From assembly GCA_913061125.1 (NCBI GenBank), contig CAJXUB010000003.1, positions 1 to 64,000 on the forward strand: a DNA stretch of 64,000 nucleotides. The letters are read 5' to 3'. Within the stretch, counting starts at the first letter, position 1; every line of letters begins with the position of its first letter. Origin of the DNA: an uncultured Flavobacteriaceae bacterium (lineage in GTDB: Bacteria > Bacteroidota > Bacteroidia > Flavobacteriales > Flavobacteriaceae). A program made the translations under genes and the position numbers. This document shows positions 1-11,272 of the stretch, piece after piece. Below the pieces are notes generated by a model, which saw only the letters and a list, made by a program, of their open reading frames with translations, had not been told where the DNA came from and searched no databases.

Positions 1-1
1 C

Positions 2-2758
2 CTTTTATTGATGGTATTTTCTTTAGTATCAATCTCCGCACAAACGGTGTTTATTTCGGGCACCCAACATTCCTCTATTCAGGCGGCTATAAATGCTGCT
101 TCTGATGGGGATGTCATTGATATTACTGGAGTTCACACCCTAACGACTGCTTTGGCCATTCCAGATAAAAGTTTTACCCTTAGGGGAACAGATCCAGCAA
201 CAGATATTATACAGGCTTCTGACACTGCCTATAGCGGCACCGATAGGGTCATTTCTTTATATCAACCTGCTTCACAAAGTGTAACCCTTAACATAGAGAA
301 TTTGGGAATCAAAAATGGGAATTCTAATTCACTTGGAATTAAAAGAGGTGGCGCCATATACATCGATCAGAATTTCAATGGATTGGTTTCAATTTCCAAC
401 TGTGTTATTCAAGGTAGTCGAGGAAGCGAAGGTGGTGCTATTGCATCTCTTGGTTGTGATGTTACAATTACAGACACGACCATTAAAGACAATACCGCTA
501 CTTCTGGTGGTGGACTTATTGCTACAGTTAATGCCAGTAACCCAGATATGGAAATAAATATATCCAGATCATTAATTTCAGGGAATTCTGCAAATAATGG
601 TGGTGGGATGTATATCAATGGAAACAATGGGAACAATGCCATTGAGGTTAACATTGACAATGCAACCATTACTGGAAATTCTGCCACAAGTGGAACAAAT
701 GGTGCTGGAGGAGGTGCCATTTGGGCTAAAGCAGCTAATTCGGCCTCTAATATTGATTTAAAACTAATTCATGTCACAATTGACAACAATAGCCATAGTT
801 CTGCTGCTAAAAATGGGTTGGCTTTTGCTGGAGGCGGCACTGCTTGGACCAATGTAGAGATATACAATTCAATTGTGGTTAATGCAGATGACATGACTCA
901 AAAAGCCATTAACTGGGTCAAAGCCAAACCTATAAACATTATAAATTCTATAATCGGGGGGAGTAATGCCGCTGGTACAGCCGTAGATGGCGCCAAAGCC
1001 AATGACTTTTTAGATGACAGTACAAAAAATAATCAAAAAGGAAAAACTGCAACACAGGCAGGGTTATCGGGAGGACTGAATTCCAATGGGGTTATAGAAA
1101 TTACTGAAGGAAGTGCTGCAGATAATCATTGTTCGGTAAGCATTCCGCCATCTACTGTCACGATTCCAACTCAGGACCAAAGAGGCTTTACAAGAGAAGG
1201 GACATCAGATGCGGGTGCTTTTGAATTTGGCGTTATTCATTACACCACTAATACAACGATTTCTTCGGACGAAACCTTTAGAAGTATTGAGGTCGAGTCT
1301 GGCGCAACCCTTACAGTTGACCCTTCAGGATCTATGGATGTTAGCGGCACACTGACAAACAACGGTTCAATTGTGATGCAATCTTCATCAACAACCTCGG
1401 CCGCATTGAAGGCCTCTTCCATTACAGGGACGGGGACTTATTCATATGCAAAGCATACGGCCAGCACATCGACCAACGATTTGATTTCAGCTCCATTTAC
1501 GGGGCAAAGTTTTTCAGATTTAATGGCTAATAATTCTAATACCATATACAGCAACCCTTCGGATAATACTCAATATTTATTCGGTTCTTATGATAACAAT
1601 TCAGGCGCTTACCTGGCTTACAATCTTAATACAGACGGCACTTTGCTAATGAATCCAGCTCAAGGATTTAGAGCTGGTAATATCAACTCAGAAAGCACCA
1701 TTACTTTTGAAGGAAATTTTCAAACATCCGATCAAACTATCGCCATAAATGTGGGTAGTGATCCTACATACGGCAAGTGGAATTTGGTTGGGAATCCATT
1801 TCCAAGTTATTTGAATTTATCGGATTTTATTGCAGACAACTCCAGTATTTTAGAATCAACTAATGTTGCAGTATATGCCTATGACGGAGATGACACTAAT
1901 GGCTCTGTATGGACCATTTATAGTTCAAATAATTCCTCTGGAATTACTATTGCTCCAGGGCAAGGATTTTTTGTAGCTTCAGGGTCAGCTGGAGGGAATT
2001 TACAATTTAATGTAGACACTCAATCGGTTAATGGTGGAGATGACTTTTTGCAACGTCAAGTGATGACCCCCGACACTCATTTTCAATTAAATTTAGAACA
2101 TCCCAACCAAGTCGCCACCACAACGTTTTATTTTAACCCCCATACTACACTGGGATTGGATCCTGGATATGATGTCGGAACTTTTGCCAACCAAACTTCA
2201 ATTTTTGGATTATTTTCCAGACTGGCTGATGCTTCTCACGAATCTGTTCAATTTGCTGTACAGGCCATTTCTAATGATTTGACTGAAACAGTTTCAGTCC
2301 CTCTAGGCGTGGTTGTTAATCCAGGCGTCGATTATGAGATTCGTTTGAACGATTCTTCAATTTTAGAGTCGGTTCAAGTGTATCTAAAAGATTATCATAC
2401 TGGTGCCTTAGTTTTACTTAACAATGGCAGCTATCAATTTAATACGAATACACCCTTGAATGGTTCCGGTCGCTTCGAATTGCGATTCAGCAATGGATCG
2501 CTCGGGAATGATCAGCCCACTATAGCAGAACATTTTAAGGCGATTCATCAGTTCGATACAGTATTAATCACAGGCGATTTTGAGTTTAATGATAAGATTA
2601 GAATCTATGACATGTTAGGCCGTTTGACCCTGTCATATACCGTTAATGGGAATGAAGATCAAATAAGACTACCGAAAGCTCAAATGGCACGCGGGGTTTA
2701 TTTGGCTCAACTCAACAGACAAGGTGAAATTCAAACCATCAAATTTATTATAAACTAA
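2..2758 (+). CDS. Right-handed beta-helix / choice-of-anchor secreted protein with T9SS type A C-terminal sorting domain (5' end truncated by window edge)
   Basis: The frame is open to the left edge (LLLMVFSLVSISAQ signal-peptide-like). Repeated G-G-A/G-I beta-helix turns; C-terminus ARGVYLAQLNRQGEIQTIKFIIN resembles a T9SS CTD. Confidence 0.8.
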   Translation, partial: LLLMVFSLVSISAQTVFISGTQHSSIQAAINAASDGDVIDITGVHTLTTALAIPDKSFTLRGTDPATDIIQASDTAYSGTDRVISLYQPASQSVTLNIENLGIKNGNSNSLGIKRGGAIYIDQNFNGLVSISNCVIQGSRGSEGGAIASLGCDVTITDTTIKDNTATSGGGLIATVNASNPDMEINISRSLISGNSANNGGGMYINGNNGNNAIEVNIDNATITGNSATSGTNGAGGGAIWAKAANSASNIDLKLIHVTIDNNSHSSAAKNGLAFAGGGTAWTNVEIYNSIVVNADDMTQKAINWVKAKPINIINSIIGGSNAAGTAVDGAKANDFLDDSTKNNQKGKTATQAGLSGGLNSNGVIEITEGSAADNHCSVSIPPSTVTIPTQDQRGFTREGTSDAGAFEFGVIHYTTNTTISSDETFRSIEVESGATLTVDPSGSMDVSGTLTNNGSIVMQSSSTTSAALKASSITGTGTYSYAKHTASTSTNDLISAPFTGQSFSDLMANNSNTIYSNPSDNTQYLFGSYDNNSGAYLAYNLNTDGTLLMNPAQGFRAGNINSESTITFEGNFQTSDQTIAINVGSDPTYGKWNLVGNPFPSYLNLSDFIADNSSILESTNVAVYAYDGDDTNGSVWTIYSSNNSSGITIAPGQGFFVASGSAGGNLQFNVDTQSVNGGDDFLQRQVMTPDTHFQLNLEHPNQVATTTFYFNPHTTLGLDPGYDVGTFANQTSIFGLFSRLADASHESVQFAVQAISNDLTETVSVPLGVVVNPGVDYEIRLNDSSILESVQVYLKDYHTGALVLLNNGSYQFNTNTPLNGSGRFELRFSNGSLGNDQPTIAEHFKAIHQFDTVLITGDFEFNDKIRIYDMLGRLTLSYTVNGNEDQIRLPKAQMARGVYLAQLNRQGEIQTIKFIIN

Positions 2759-2900: not shown

Positions 2901-3062
2901 ATGAAAACACCAGAAAATCATAAAATCAATCGAAAACAAGCGCTGAAGAAAATGGGTAAATATGCCGCACTTACTGCTCTTGGAACTTTTGTTATACTGA
3001 ATCCTAAAAAGGCACAGGCTCAATCACCACCAAACCCTGGAGATGACCCTTTTGCTGGGTAA
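2901..3062 (+). CDS. 53-aa micropeptide with Tat-like/secretory N-terminus: MKTPENHKINRKQALKKMGKYAALTALGTFVILNPKKAQAQSPPNPGDDPFAG
   Basis: Not in the supplied ORF track (too short). ATG at 2901, TAA at 3060-3062; basic region, hydrophobic core and AQA cleavage-like site; ends 3 nt before the ATG of the next gene. Confidence 0.7.
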   Translation: MKTPENHKINRKQALKKMGKYAALTALGTFVILNPKKAQAQSPPNPGDDPFAG

Positions 3063-3065
3063 ATC

Positions 3066-4178
3066 ATGTCAGCTTATAGTAAACCTGATTTCATTACTTC
3101 AGGAGATGAATTTTCATTAGCATACTTTTCAACGTCAAGTAATTTTTTGTTAGTTCAAGGGGATCTTGAAGTGTTTTTTTGTGACGCTTTAAATCCAAAT
3201 TTTGAGTGCTATAACGAGGTCATAGAAAAGCTGATTATTGATCATCCCGAAATGATCCAATGTTTTGTAGGATATAAGGAGGCGGGCATTTGTCCCCAAA
3301 AAATTACGAATATGGCCTCCAAACAAGGATTATTAACAGGGCAACTATCAACTGCAATTCAGTTGAGCCGTTCTTTTGTTAAGGTGCATTTTGAATCGGT
3401 GTCATTGAAACAAATTTTTTTAGCACCCTATGAGCACCTGATAATTGAAAGACCTGATCTAAAGGATTTTAATATTCTATCTTTTTATCAAAACAAAGGT
3501 CATATATGTATGGTTTCAAAATCGAATGAGATTGCTTATGCCTTAGAATTTGAATATCATAAATTACAAGCTCAATTTGCAAACACATTAATTGAGTATT
3601 ATCACAATTTAGAGTCAAACCCATGGCTGTGCTCTTTTCATGCTTGCGCAGTGCAAAAGAATAACAAAACGTATTTAATCTTAGGAGATTCTGGAGCGGG
3701 TAAGAGTACTTTAACGGCTCTTATGTGCGGAAGTGGATATCGTTTTGTGGGTGACGATTTGATTTTAATGGATTCTGAATTTAATATTTATGACAATCCA
3801 GCAGCCCTTTCAGTTAAAGAAAATTCTTGGAATATAGTATCTAAATACCATGAGAGATTTTCCACAATCAACGAGTCAAGTCGTACTAAAGGGAAGACCA
3901 AAATGAAGTATCTACCCCTTCATTTAATTCAAAATAATACGCCAAAGAAGCATAAAATAAGTGCTTTGATTTGGGTAAATTATAAATCAAATGTAAAAAC
4001 ACAATTAAAGCCTTTGAGCTCATTTGACATTTGCTCAAAATTAATTCCAGATACTTGGGTAAATCCAGACTCAAATTATCCAGAACTGTTTGCACATTGG
4101 CTCATTCAAACCAAAGGGTATCAATTAACGTATTCTGATTTTAGTTCCCTTGAAAGCATATTAAATGAAGATTTTTAA
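3066..4178 (+). CDS. HPr kinase/phosphorylase-like (HprK-related) P-loop protein
   Basis: Walker A GDSGAGKST followed by FVGDDLILMD, the arrangement seen in HprK C-terminal domains. Confidence 0.75.
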   Translation: MSAYSKPDFITSGDEFSLAYFSTSSNFLLVQGDLEVFFCDALNPNFECYNEVIEKLIIDHPEMIQCFVGYKEAGICPQKITNMASKQGLLTGQLSTAIQLSRSFVKVHFESVSLKQIFLAPYEHLIIERPDLKDFNILSFYQNKGHICMVSKSNEIAYALEFEYHKLQAQFANTLIEYYHNLESNPWLCSFHACAVQKNNKTYLILGDSGAGKSTLTALMCGSGYRFVGDDLILMDSEFNIYDNPAALSVKENSWNIVSKYHERFSTINESSRTKGKTKMKYLPLHLIQNNTPKKHKISALIWVNYKSNVKTQLKPLSSFDICSKLIPDTWVNPDSNYPELFAHWLIQTKGYQLTYSDFSSLESILNEDF

Positions 4179-4256: not shown

Positions 4257-5015
4257 ATGATGTCCATTAAAGCTGTATTTCTTTGTTTAATTTCAATTAT
4301 TATCACTTCGTGTGCTTCAAAGAAAGACCTGTATTACCTTCAAGACATTGATCAAATGTCTTTAAAAAATGACTTTAAGTTTTTAAGTATTCAACCAGGG
4401 GATATTCTAGATATTCAAATCAAAGCTTTAAATCCTGAGAGTGTGTTGGTTTTTCAACGACAATCAGCTTTGACGCCTCAACAGGGACAATTACAAAACC
4501 GGGCGATTGATGGCTATCTTGTTGGAGAAGACGGGTCTATCACTCTACCACTTATTGGATCCATATCAACTTCAAAAAAAACTACCCAAACTCTAGCCAC
4601 AGACCTTCAAGATGCCCTAAGGCCATTCATAAAAGATCCAACGGTCAATATCCGCATATTAAACTTCAGAGTTTCTGTTTTAGGCGAAGTTAATAACCCT
4701 GGTACCTTTACCGTTTTGGAGGAGCGCATCAGTGTTCTTCAAGCGTTAGGTTTAGCGGGTGATCTCACCATCAATGGTAACCGAAATAATATAACATTGG
4801 TTAGAACTGCAAACGGTAAAACTGAAAATTACAACATTGATTTGACCAAATCAGAGTTCATGCAATCGTCATTTTACAATCTTAAACAAAACGATATTAT
4901 TTATGTTCAACCCAATACTGCTCGAGTTAAGTCCTCTGGTCTTGTGGGGAACACATCAACGTTAGTATCAATTCTTAGTCTTGCAGTAAGTTTATTTATT
5001 GTAATCACACGATAG
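4257..5015 (+). CDS. Polysaccharide biosynthesis/export outer-membrane lipoprotein (Wza-like, SLBB)
   Basis: Lipoprotein signal IITSCASKKDLYYLQD; 'QPGDILDIQIKALNPES', 'VSVLGEVNNPGTFTVLEERISVLQALGLAGDLTINGNRNNI'. Confidence 0.9.
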   Translation: MMSIKAVFLCLISIIITSCASKKDLYYLQDIDQMSLKNDFKFLSIQPGDILDIQIKALNPESVLVFQRQSALTPQQGQLQNRAIDGYLVGEDGSITLPLIGSISTSKKTTQTLATDLQDALRPFIKDPTVNIRILNFRVSVLGEVNNPGTFTVLEERISVLQALGLAGDLTINGNRNNITLVRTANGKTENYNIDLTKSEFMQSSFYNLKQNDIIYVQPNTARVKSSGLVGNTSTLVSILSLAVSLFIVITR

Positions 5016-5019
5016 TTTT

Positions 5020-7362
5020 ATGAATTCATCTGATAATTTTATTAACCAAGAAAACGATTCTGTTGATTTCGTTAAAGAAGTTAGATATTATTTATTTTTT
5101 TGGCCTTGGTTTTTGGCCTCTGTTATAGTATTTGGCCTTGGTACTTATGTATATCTTAGATATGCAGACACTGTTTATCAAACCAATGCTACTCTACAAG
5201 TTAAAGATGCCTCTTCCGATCCGTCTTCCTTTTTAACTGAAGGTGCCGGAGCAATGTTTAATTTCAACCGAGTTAAGATTGACAATTACATTGCTCAGAT
5301 TGGCTCAAAGCCCAATCTCTCTGTTATGACTGATCGTCTGGATTTGAGAACTCAGGTTTATGCTGTTGGACGGGTCAAACAAAGTCTTGCGTTTGGTGAT
5401 GAAATTCCCTTTGATATTGTGTTTAAAACCGAGCAGGACTATAATCAAATTCGATTGGTTTTGGAGCCCAAGGAAGGAGCCATTCAAATTGGTGAAGATG
5501 AAGAACTCCGGTTTAGTTTTTCGGAGCCATTCGAAACGGATGATTTTATTTTGATTGTTAATGGCAATGCCGTAGAGGATAGCAGTGAGTTTCTTATCAA
5601 ACGAAGTTCTAAGTCCAAAACCATCACGAGCCTGTCAAAGCAAATTGAAATTAATGCCAGCAGCAAAACAGGAGATAATATTGATTTGGCAGTTCAAGGG
5701 TCAAATATTGAGCGCAACGAAGCCATTATAAATACGCTCATTGATGTGGCTCACGAACAACAAATTACCGATAAGCAGGAAATTTTTGCTCTATCAATCG
5801 ATTTTATTAATAATAGGTTAGGATCCATAAAATCTGAAATTGATTCGCTCACCCTTAAAACAACAGGTTTCAAATCAGATAATCTAATTTTTTCTCCCGA
5901 AGCACAAACTTCCGCTGCACTATCCAACATCACTACTTTGGATCAAGAGCAGTTTAATTTAACAACCCAAAGGGCCCTGGCACAATCGCTAAAGCGCAAT
6001 CTGGATAATCAAAATGATTATAGTCTGTTGCCATCAAATATTGGCCTCTCTAGTGGCAATGTTAACGACTTGGTCGTTTCATACAATGAGTTGGTCTTAA
6101 AGCGCAAGAATTTATTGGCTGGAGCCACTAAACGTAATCCGCTCGTTGTTCAATTAAGTGATCAATTAAAAGATCTTAGGGGTAATATTTTTGAAAGTAT
6201 TAATAATTATATAAATAACATAGATACATCGCTGTCAAAGTATAAAGAGTTTAAAAATCGCACCAATTCTAAGGTTTCTAAAATCCCAGGGCTGGAAGCC
6301 TCGCTTTTAAGCTTTCAGCGGAAGTTTCAAATAGCCGAAAAGCTCTACTTGTTTCTTCTAGAGCGTCGTGAGGAAGCTTCAATCAGTTTTGAATCGACAT
6401 TACCAAATACCAGAGTTATTAATTATGCCAACACCGATTATATTCCTGTTGCTCCAAAAAAACAAATTTTAGCGTTAGCAGCTATTCTTTTAGGGCTCAT
6501 GATTCCTTTTGGGGTTCTCTACATTCTAAAACTTTTAGATACCAAAATCCATACCAGGGATGAACTTGAAAAGCTTATCCCCAATTTAGATATCTTAGGG
6601 GAGGTTCCTTATGTCCAAGAGAAGAAATCAGTTTTGGATTCTCGAGGAATCTTTGCCGAAGCCACTAGAGTGATACGATCCAACATCAGCTTTAAGCTTA
6701 AAGACGATGAACATTGTAAAGTCATATTGTCAACCTCAAGCATCAAAGGTGAGGGAAAAACATTGACTGCTTTTAACACTGCTGCTAGTTATGTCGCGGC
6801 AGGAAAAAAAGTATTGCTGATTGGTTCAGATCTTAGGAATCCTAAGGTGCACTCTTTGTTAGGTATTGATCGAAAATCTAATGATAAAGGGCTTAGTAAT
6901 TTAATCTCTAATGGTGTAAGTAAAGTAAACTCAGATTACTTTATTAAAATGGATTTATTTAACAGACAAATGGATGTGTTGCTCAGTGGTCCCATCCCTC
7001 CCAATCCTGCAGAGCTTTTGGGGTCCGAGTCATTTGAATCTCTATTGAATGAGCTTAAGCAGTCCTACGATTATATTGTCATTGACTCTGCACCACTAGT
7101 TCTTGTCAGCGACTCCATACCTCTACTTAAGTTGTCCGATTTGGTATTGTACACCGTTAGAGCTCACTACTCTGATAAAAAATTAATTCCTTTCATTAAG
7201 AGCCTAGTGGAAGATGATAAAGTTAGCACTATCGGTATTGTTCTAAACGGGGTTAAAGCCGGGGCCAAGTCATACTACAAATACGGATACAGCTACCGTT
7301 ACAGCTATCAGTACAAATATAACTACGGCTACGGCTACGGCTACGGGGAAGATCAATCTTAG
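5020..7362 (+). CDS. Wzc-like polysaccharide co-polymerase / BY-family tyrosine kinase
   Basis: N-terminal Wzz-like region, GNVR-like region, Walker A-like 'STSSIKGEGKTLTAFN', Walker A' 'VLLIGSDLRNPKVH', Walker B 'YDYIVIDSAPLVLVSDSIPL', Tyr-rich C-terminal tail. Confidence 0.92.
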   Translation: MNSSDNFINQENDSVDFVKEVRYYLFFWPWFLASVIVFGLGTYVYLRYADTVYQTNATLQVKDASSDPSSFLTEGAGAMFNFNRVKIDNYIAQIGSKPNLSVMTDRLDLRTQVYAVGRVKQSLAFGDEIPFDIVFKTEQDYNQIRLVLEPKEGAIQIGEDEELRFSFSEPFETDDFILIVNGNAVEDSSEFLIKRSSKSKTITSLSKQIEINASSKTGDNIDLAVQGSNIERNEAIINTLIDVAHEQQITDKQEIFALSIDFINNRLGSIKSEIDSLTLKTTGFKSDNLIFSPEAQTSAALSNITTLDQEQFNLTTQRALAQSLKRNLDNQNDYSLLPSNIGLSSGNVNDLVVSYNELVLKRKNLLAGATKRNPLVVQLSDQLKDLRGNIFESINNYINNIDTSLSKYKEFKNRTNSKVSKIPGLEASLLSFQRKFQIAEKLYLFLLERREEASISFESTLPNTRVINYANTDYIPVAPKKQILALAAILLGLMIPFGVLYILKLLDTKIHTRDELEKLIPNLDILGEVPYVQEKKSVLDSRGIFAEATRVIRSNISFKLKDDEHCKVILSTSSIKGEGKTLTAFNTAASYVAAGKKVLLIGSDLRNPKVHSLLGIDRKSNDKGLSNLISNGVSKVNSDYFIKMDLFNRQMDVLLSGPIPPNPAELLGSESFESLLNELKQSYDYIVIDSAPLVLVSDSIPLLKLSDLVLYTVRAHYSDKKLIPFIKSLVEDDKVSTIGIVLNGVKAGAKSYYKYGYSYRYSYQYKYNYGYGYGYGEDQS

Positions 7363-8090
7363 TTGTTAAATAACATCAGATGGTTTTCTCTTAGTCCATC
7401 CCATGCCATCAATTCTTTTTTATCGAGTTTAAGATTATGGAGTTGCTTTAATTGGTAAGGATTGTGAGCATCAGTACAAACAAAGTCGTAAACTCCATGT
7501 TTAAGCCAATTTGACGCTTTTTTTTGGATGTCCTTTCCATAGTATCCCAACAACGATAATGCATTGAGTTGCATTTTGGCGCCTTTTTGTTTGAGGTCTT
7601 TAACCTGATTGATATTTTTCAAGGTGGTGTATCGTTCTGGGTGAGCCAGAATGGGTAAATATTCTTTGTTTAGTAGTACAAATAGGGCTTCATCTAATAT
7701 GTTTAGTGCTCCAAAAAATGGAATTTCAAGCAGTAAGTAGCTTCTAAAACAAGGTAATAATACGTGGCCTTTGTTCACCTCAGCCATAAAAAATTCATCA
7801 ACCATATATTCTGCAGAATACCCTCTCAAATTTACGGGATGGCTTTTCGCAGCATTTTGAAGTAAATCAAAAGCATTTGAAATTGTATCGGGGGTGTTGG
7901 GATAAAGGTCTTTGTAAATGTGTGGGGAGGCAATAAGGGTATTAATTTCGAGTTGCTCGAACAAATTGAGCATTTCTAACGACTGGGCTATGGATTTACT
8001 ACCATCATCAATTCCCGGAAGTATATGGTTATGAAAATCAATAAGACCTTTAAATAGGGCTTGTTTCTTTTTCTTGAACAAAAATATCAT
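7359..8090 (-). CDS. PHP-family protein-tyrosine phosphatase (CpsB/YwqE-like)
   Basis: 'DFHNHILPGIDDGSKS', 'ASPHIYKDLYPN', 'LAHPERY', 'VCTDAHN'. Confidence 0.9.
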   Translation of the reverse strand: MIFLFKKKKQALFKGLIDFHNHILPGIDDGSKSIAQSLEMLNLFEQLEINTLIASPHIYKDLYPNTPDTISNAFDLLQNAAKSHPVNLRGYSAEYMVDEFFMAEVNKGHVLLPCFRSYLLLEIPFFGALNILDEALFVLLNKEYLPILAHPERYTTLKNINQVKDLKQKGAKMQLNALSLLGYYGKDIQKKASNWLKHGVYDFVCTDAHNPYQLKQLHNLKLDKKELMAWDGLRENHLMLFNN

Positions 8091-9261: not shown

Positions 9262-9591
9262 ATGGGATTGGCCAAAACAGAAATATTTTCAAAGTCCCAA
9301 AACGATATTGCCAACTGGGCCAAGGTTTTGGGGCATCCTGCACGAGTGGCTATTTTGCAACATTTGTTCAAAATAAACAGTTGTATTTGCGGTGATTTGG
9401 TCTTAGAAATTGGTCTAGCACAAGCTACTATTTCGCAACACCTCAAAGAACTAAAAACCCTTGGCCTAATCCAAGGAACCGTTGAGGGCACCAGCGTTTG
9501 CTACTGTATTAATCCTGAAAATTGGCTTAAAATGAAACACATCCTGACAGATTTTCTAAATCAAGATGCATTTGAAAACCCTTGTTGCTAA
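9262..9591 (+). CDS. arsR: ArsR-family metalloregulator
   Basis: wHTH 'IGLAQATISQHLKELKTLGLIQG' with 'NSCICGDLV' near the position of the metal-binding ELCVCDL motif; precedes arsenate/arsenite genes. Confidence 0.85.
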   Translation: MGLAKTEIFSKSQNDIANWAKVLGHPARVAILQHLFKINSCICGDLVLEIGLAQATISQHLKELKTLGLIQGTVEGTSVCYCINPENWLKMKHILTDFLNQDAFENPCC

Positions 9592-9607
9592 TCACAAAAA
9601 CCAATCT

Positions 9608-10222
9608 ATGCTGTATCAACCCATTCAACACCAAATCGAGACCTTAAACCAAACGGCTGTTTCGGATGATCGAAAAAAGGGACTTCAATCCCTGATTAAT
9701 TACATCCAATCTAAAGTCAATTTAAAACAAGATATTCGGTTAAATTTTATTTGCACCCACAACTCTCGTCGCAGCCATTTGTCGCAAGTATGGGCACAAA
9801 CTATGGCCTATTATTTTGATATCAAAAATGTGTTTTGTTATTCGGGTGGTACAGAAAGTACGGCGTTATTTTCAGCCGCTGCTAAATCCTTATCCGATTC
9901 TGGTTTTGAAATCGAGGTTTTAGGAAATGACACCAATCCAATCCATGCCATTAAATACGCCTCAACAGCGCACCCCATAATAGGATTTTCAAAAACTTTC
10001 GACAGTCCATTTAATCCCGCCTCTGATTTTGCGGCCGTGATGACGTGCGCTTCAGCCGATATAGGTTGTCCCTTTATTTCTGGTGCAGAAGCCCGTATTC
10101 CAATGACCTTTGAAGATCCCAAAGCGTTTGATAACACACCGCATCAGGCCCAAAAATATACCGAACGAAGTTTACAAATTGCCACCGAATTGAAGTATGT
10201 TTTTTCACAAATTAAAGCGTAA
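9608..10222 (+). CDS. Low-molecular-weight protein-tyrosine-phosphatase-like arsenate reductase
   Basis: P-loop CX5R 'FICTHNSRRSHLSQ'; between arsR and ACR3. ATG 9608 preferred over the upstream in-frame ATG 9566. Confidence 0.82.
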   Translation: MLYQPIQHQIETLNQTAVSDDRKKGLQSLINYIQSKVNLKQDIRLNFICTHNSRRSHLSQVWAQTMAYYFDIKNVFCYSGGTESTALFSAAAKSLSDSGFEIEVLGNDTNPIHAIKYASTAHPIIGFSKTFDSPFNPASDFAAVMTCASADIGCPFISGAEARIPMTFEDPKAFDNTPHQAQKYTERSLQIATELKYVFSQIKA

Positions 10223-10225
10223 AAT

Positions 10226-11272
10226 ATGTCAGCAAAACAATTGAGTTTTTTGGATAAAAACCTAACCCTTTGGATTTTTGTAGCCATGGCCATTGGAGTA
10301 AGTTTGGGCTACTTTGTACCATCAATCCCTGAAACAATTGATGCCATGAGCCGCGGCACCACCAATATTCCCATCGCGATAGGGCTTATTGTTATGATGT
10401 ACCCGCCCCTTGCCAAGGTAAATTACGCCCTTTTACCAAAGGTGTTTCAAAACACCAAAATTCTATCCATATCTCTAATTCTCAATTGGATCATTGGCCC
10501 AATCCTCATGTTTGTGTTGGCCCTTATGTTTTTAAGCGATTATCCCGAATACATGGTTGGTTTGATATTAATTGGGCTCGCTCGCTGCATTGCCATGGTA
10601 TTGGTTTGGAACGATTTGGCCGACGGCAGCACCGAATATGGAGCCGCGTTGGTGGCACTCAATAGCATCTTTCAAGTGTTTGCTTACAGTTTTTATGCTT
10701 GGATTTTTATTACCGTACTCCCACCGTATTTTGGGTTTGATGCTGCTATTGTTGACATCTCAATACAAACTGTTGCAGAAAGTGTTTTAATTTACCTTGG
10801 TATTCCTTTCATTTTAGGCATTTTGAGTCGTCAAATCCTCATTAGATTGAAAGGCGAATTGTGGTACACCCAAACGTTTATTCCAAAAATTTCGCCACTA
10901 ACACTCCTTGCTTTGCTGTTTACCATTGTAGTTATGTTTTCACTGAAAGGAGAGCTTATTGTAGAAATCCCAATGGATGTTTTCATCATAGCTATTCCAT
11001 TACTTATCTATTTTGCACTGATGTTTTTTATTGGGTTCTTTTTTACCAAAGCAATGGGAGCCGATTACGACAAAACCGCTTCAGTGGCCTTTACAGCGGC
11101 GGGGAATAATTTTGAACTGGCCATCGCAGTAGCGATTGGCGTTTTTGGGTTAAATTCTGGCCAAGCTTTTACAGGTGTAATTGGCCCTTTAGTTGAAGTC
11201 CCAGCACTTATACTTTTGGTTAAAGTTTCCTTTTGGCTCAGAAAACGGTACTTTAAAGCAATTACAGATTAA
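10226..11272 (+). CDS. ACR3-family arsenite efflux permease
   Basis: Multi-TM; '[35 protein letters not shown]', '[20 protein letters not shown]'. Confidence 0.92.

Follow-up and report, generated by a model that had tools for sequence, protein, structure and literature searches.

A 53-aa peptide and the HprK-like kinase encoded directly behind it probably form a peptide-modification pair, in which the kinase would phosphorylate Ser42 of the precursor peptide, and the peptide would be exported and act together with a surface protein and a polysaccharide. The window, by which we mean the whole stretch of DNA analysed here, comprises the first 64 kb of contig C3, from a 1.8 Mb assembly that is 99% complete. 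The genes for the precursor peptide (2901..3062, plus strand) and the 370-aa P-loop kinase (3066..4178, plus strand) both start with ATG, and the peptide stop codon lies 3 nt ahead of the kinase ATG, as a sequence-only reading of the same DNA had described. Upstream, and truncated by the contig start, is F1 (1..2758, plus strand), a type IX-secreted giant surface protein whose distinctive C-terminal module of ~410 aa (1493-2755, plus strand) has a type A sorting domain at its end. Found together in scattered flavobacteria, the kinase, the peptide, and the giant surface protein suggest a surface-associated peptide-modification system that is new to description.

The 53-aa ORF is a real gene under purifying selection. 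Among kinase relatives from 301 genomes of the family, and L031 from a Bacteroidetes MAG, almost all complete loci have a small homologous ORF just ahead of the kinase gene, and a profile built from 25 of these ORFs matches 32 of the 301 genomes. The intact homologues collected (n=42) all fall within one bacterial family, and a class-wide draw gave no match in any other family. Neither Pfam nor NCBIfam has a model that fits the peptide. The window and L031 peptides differ with a pS of 0.84 and a pN of 0.18, and those of L034 and L040 with a dN of 0.033 and a dS of 0.42; dN/dS is about 0.05-0.36 among the pairs that can be judged, dS being saturated in some pairs, and the L128 pair, with three changes in all, is uninformative for this ratio. 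Relatives in so many genomes, invariant residues, and synonymous-biased substitution argue that the ORF is not a chance occurrence. Both its conservation beside homologous kinases and its coding pattern of codon substitution bear out the gene that the sequence-only reading had proposed.

Residues 1-40 of the peptide form a conserved leader, with a basic stretch, the hydrophobic segment YAALTALGTFVIL, and AQA, and the tail, QSPPNPGDDPFAG, contains an invariant serine, Ser42 (codon 3024-3026). Aligned, the peptides give the consensus ITRKEALKKMGKYAALTAxGTFxILNPKKAQAxS, behind which comes a tail of roughly 7 to 50 residues. Every one of the 42 intact peptides has the serine at a fixed spacing (LxP, six residues, Ser), never replaced by threonine; the tail behind it differs in length and sequence. 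The AQA site that had been marked ahead of the tail from the letters alone is present here but is only mostly conserved among relatives (variants AQT, AQV, AQE, and AQQ), whereas Ser42 is invariant; this serine had been overlooked, as had the tie to the upstream type IX-secreted giant protein and the dispersed peptide copies. In G285 and G297, where no kinase was detected, decayed peptide copies carry a Tyr or stop codon in place of the Ser codon. A search behind the decayed G285 peptide found no kinase remnant, and orthology of this locus with G070 could not be demonstrated. Elsewhere, two different tandem peptides follow a single F1 upstream of the kinase in L044, one with a KPGKPGKP repeat tail, and five tandem near-identical 119-aa ORFs (MVRAHVGPQIKAAL...) lie at L092:2580-4503, a few kb upstream of an unlinked peptide.

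The kinase carries the Walker A motif GDSGAGKST and the GDD motif already picked out by eye, both in invariant columns of 27 homologues. Its AlphaFold model (pLDDT 87.7, pTM 0.86) matches PEP carboxykinases and HprK/P in the PDB, two families that have this type of P-loop fold in common. The whole model fits PEP carboxykinases better; by sequence, HprK/P ranks first. All 27 kinases match HprK-related kinase A (HprK_rel_A, TIGR04352) as their best NCBIfam family, and the window kinase also shares polysaccharide export neighbors with that family, but it scores 55 bits against a curated cut-off of 200 and its genome has no PqqD-like partner. Identity of the window kinase to the others is ~20%, except to that of L031 (61%). 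Residues H192, K213, D230, and D231 are invariant in the 27 kinases and correspond to the His-Lys-Asp-Asp (HKDD) tetrad of lasso-peptide kinases, where it is essential (PMC9266682).

Likeness to HPr kinase/phosphorylase lies in the P-loop core with its catalytic Asp residues, but the core alone aligns. An HPr gene was found in none of 14 genomes searched (the window genome, 11 other kinase-positive genomes, and two more), with the control positive in seven, so the earlier remark that no HPr gene is visible extends to the whole genome. HPr was accordingly rejected as the substrate for the 12 kinase-bearing genomes, the window genome included; because the gene is missing, the kinase is not functionally an HPr kinase and requires another substrate. 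A distant HprK-like kinase (E 5e-7) without a peptide also occurs in a polysaccharide-type cluster, L060 (G143:C1:952000-971900).

Peptide and kinase occur together in 28 of the 301 genomes, the kinase only in one, where it sits at a contig edge, the peptide only in four, and neither in 268. The suggestion that the peptide is a substrate or partner of the kinase stands to the extent that a conserved gene is tied to the kinase, in 28 of 29 kinase genomes. G137 and G277 have intact peptides and no detected kinase, in assemblies that are 82-84% complete. Of the 29 kinase genomes, 28 have strong matches to the F1 module (E below 1e-60), compared with 4 of the 272 others; twelve kinase-negative genomes examined singly have weaker, generic matches (at most 148 bits vs >340 for the real module). 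The F1 profile was derived from F1 proteins beside peptides, which therefore match by construction; additional F1 copies at other sites in those genomes (G159, G046) are free of this circularity. A third partner, an NTP_transf_5 protein of ~350 aa (PF14907, E 6e-31) with invariant D128 and D130, is a conserved kinase neighbor with relatives in 26 genomes, every one kinase-positive. No relative of it was found anywhere in the window genome, though the kinase, peptide, and F1 are present. Pairwise Fisher p values for the four parts are all <1e-28, values that ignore shared ancestry, and G047 and G270, of the same genus as the window genome, are without all four.

All 27 F1 proteins carry the type A C-terminal sorting domain TIGR04183, and the type IX component SprA (T9SS) is present in G000. 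A PDB search with the F1 module returned generic beta-sandwiches and the sorting domain and nothing else. In G056, several contigs (C1, C21, C24, and C26) break near position ~284 of the module, which suggests that near-identical F1 copies disrupted the assembly. A further neighbor of ~197 aa, present in 12 loci and without a Pfam match, looks like an outer-membrane barrel. Behind the kinase in the window lie genes for a Wza-like polysaccharide export protein (4257..5015, plus strand), a Wzc-like chain-length protein/tyrosine autokinase (5020..7362, plus strand), and a CpsB/CapC-type phosphatase (7359..8090, minus strand). A Wza-like gene lies downstream in L031 too, and its link to the peptide/kinase pair is possible, though observed in this lineage only. 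Polysaccharide-type genes (nucleotide-sugar enzymes, NusG-like antiterminators) occur within 10 kb in about one third of the loci, as a raw count. By eye, translations at 9262-11272 of the window show an ArsR-like regulator, an arsenate-reductase-like protein, and an ACR3-type permease in succession. Scans for sigma-70-type promoters and terminators gave no excess over shuffles, and no exact TAnnTTTG site lies ahead of the peptide gene.

Related chemistry has been described in the linear polyphosphorylated peptide (LPP) clusters of Bacillota (2026). There, LppK loads Ser3 of the linear core with as many as four phosphates, and replacement of this serine by Ala, Thr, or Tyr abolishes phosphorylation (PMC13381572). 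The LPP loci sit among polysaccharide genes and include an NTP transferase and a signal-peptidase-like enzyme that cuts just ahead of the core (PMC13381572). The loci here are alike in having a precursor with a conserved N-terminal part and a variable C-terminus, an HprK-like kinase beside it, a setting in polysaccharide loci, and a conserved serine close to the predicted cut (the third core residue in LPP, about the second here). An NTP transferase (PF14907) adjoins the kinase in most relatives and is absent from the window genome. The rejection of Thr and Tyr by LppK fits the lack of Thr at the serine position of our peptides. The phosphorylated LPP core begins AQS (PMC13381572) and the peptides here often read AQAQS, a resemblance that may be coincidence.

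Against this likeness, the LPP leader motif YxxPxVLxHQxIxFETxxS was not found in the peptide alignment, and no PqqD-like/RRE protein of the LppB type (PF05402) was found in 13 genomes searched, with the control positive, so that an RRE-dependent RiPP was rejected. No SipW-like peptidase or MsbA-like exporter stood out among the conserved neighbors, and the system here differs in its tie to a type IX-secreted giant protein, its Gram-negative family, and its dispersed peptide copies. Since the RRE and the leader motif were sought and are absent, we do not class the system as LPP; judged by sequence, it would work like the LPP of Bacillota, but as a new variant. The comparison with lasso peptides and other RiPPs made in the sequence-only reading proved apt, as the kinase has the HKDD tetrad and most relatives have an NTP_transf_5 partner. 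The paeninodin/pseudomycoidin type (PadeK, ThcoK, PsmK, PsmN; PMC9266682) likewise pairs such a kinase with an NTP transferase, acting on a conserved serine of a ribosomal peptide, and in pseudomycoidin it is PsmN that accounts for the hexoses carried by the phosphoserine (PMC9266682). Here, no macrolactam synthetase or B1/B2 protein was recognised among the conserved neighbors and no B1-type RRE was found (13 genomes), and the serine is at the start of the tail vs the C-terminus in lasso peptides.

We propose that the leader, the conserved N-terminal part, would be read by kinase and export machinery alike; with no PqqD/RRE protein, it would need direct recognition by the enzymes. The kinase would phosphorylate, perhaps polyphosphorylate, Ser42 in the cytoplasm, and in most relatives NTP_transf_5 might then add a sugar or nucleotide to the phosphate, a step missing in the window genome. 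The precursor would be exported by Sec or Tat, the latter being present in the window genome, and cleaved near AQA, so that the phosphoserine would stand at roughly the second position of the short peptide released. Outside the cytoplasm, this peptide might work with the type IX-secreted protein encoded upstream, perhaps also with the exported polysaccharide. We infer the first step, with good comparative support, by analogy with the LPP kinase and the pseudomycoidin enzymes; the later ones are more conjectural.

Alternatively, the peptide may be a small secreted or membrane partner (a chaperone or anchor) of the type IX cargo, with the kinase having another target, such as the precursor form of the surface protein or a sugar. 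The peptide does lie directly behind F1 in most loci, including all six G569 copies, each 13 to about 140 nt behind an F1 protein, and F1-peptide is a recurring unit. F1 modules can also exceed peptides in number, as in G159, with nine strong modules and one peptide. This explanation leaves unaccounted for the invariant serine, never threonine, ahead of a variable tail and the loss of that serine where the kinase is missing, and peptides without an adjoining F1 also exist (L092, L095, L097, L101, L103). We consider it unlikely.

The position of the peptide immediately upstream of the kinase, with a 3-nt gap and possible translational coupling, would also suit a peptide that regulates the kinase rather than serving as its substrate, or an upstream ORF controlling kinase translation. 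Peptide copies unlinked to the kinase speak against this: in G569 a single kinase and NTP_transf_5 pair is separate from the six peptides, in the single contig of G124 both peptides are away from the kinase, and unlinked peptides also occur in G151 and G068, all in the same genome set as a kinase. Such copies, those of G569 and G124 above all, imply that the peptide acts in trans and not as a cis regulator, and a cis-acting upstream ORF was rejected on this ground. With strong selection on the amino acid sequence of the peptide as well, a regulatory role is very improbable. A toxin-antitoxin or bacteriocin-like pair, which a small basic/hydrophobic peptide adjoining an enzyme might recall, is more improbable still, given that no immunity or antitoxin gene was recognised nearby, that dispersed peptides lack an adjoining kinase, and that the genes associate with surface-protein and envelope genes.

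Returning to phosphorylation of Ser42, there is a small chance that the phospho- or phosphoglyco-peptide is a molecular joint or primer tying the type IX-secreted giant protein to exopolysaccharide; if true, this would be a cell-surface assembly system linked by a modified ribosomal peptide. In the literature collection searched, no publication combines 'type IX secretion' and 'HPr kinase'. Sets of an HprK-like kinase, an NTP transferase, and a small peptide recur in polysaccharide loci with roles unknown, and the LPP authors describe the biological role as unknown (PMC13381572). The family studied here shows what is apparently the same chemistry in a different phylum, linked with a single, defined class of secreted surface protein. 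It thereby names a protein partner for LPP-like chemistry, offers natural copy-number and loss variants, and provides hosts that could serve to test what peptide phosphorylation does at the cell surface.
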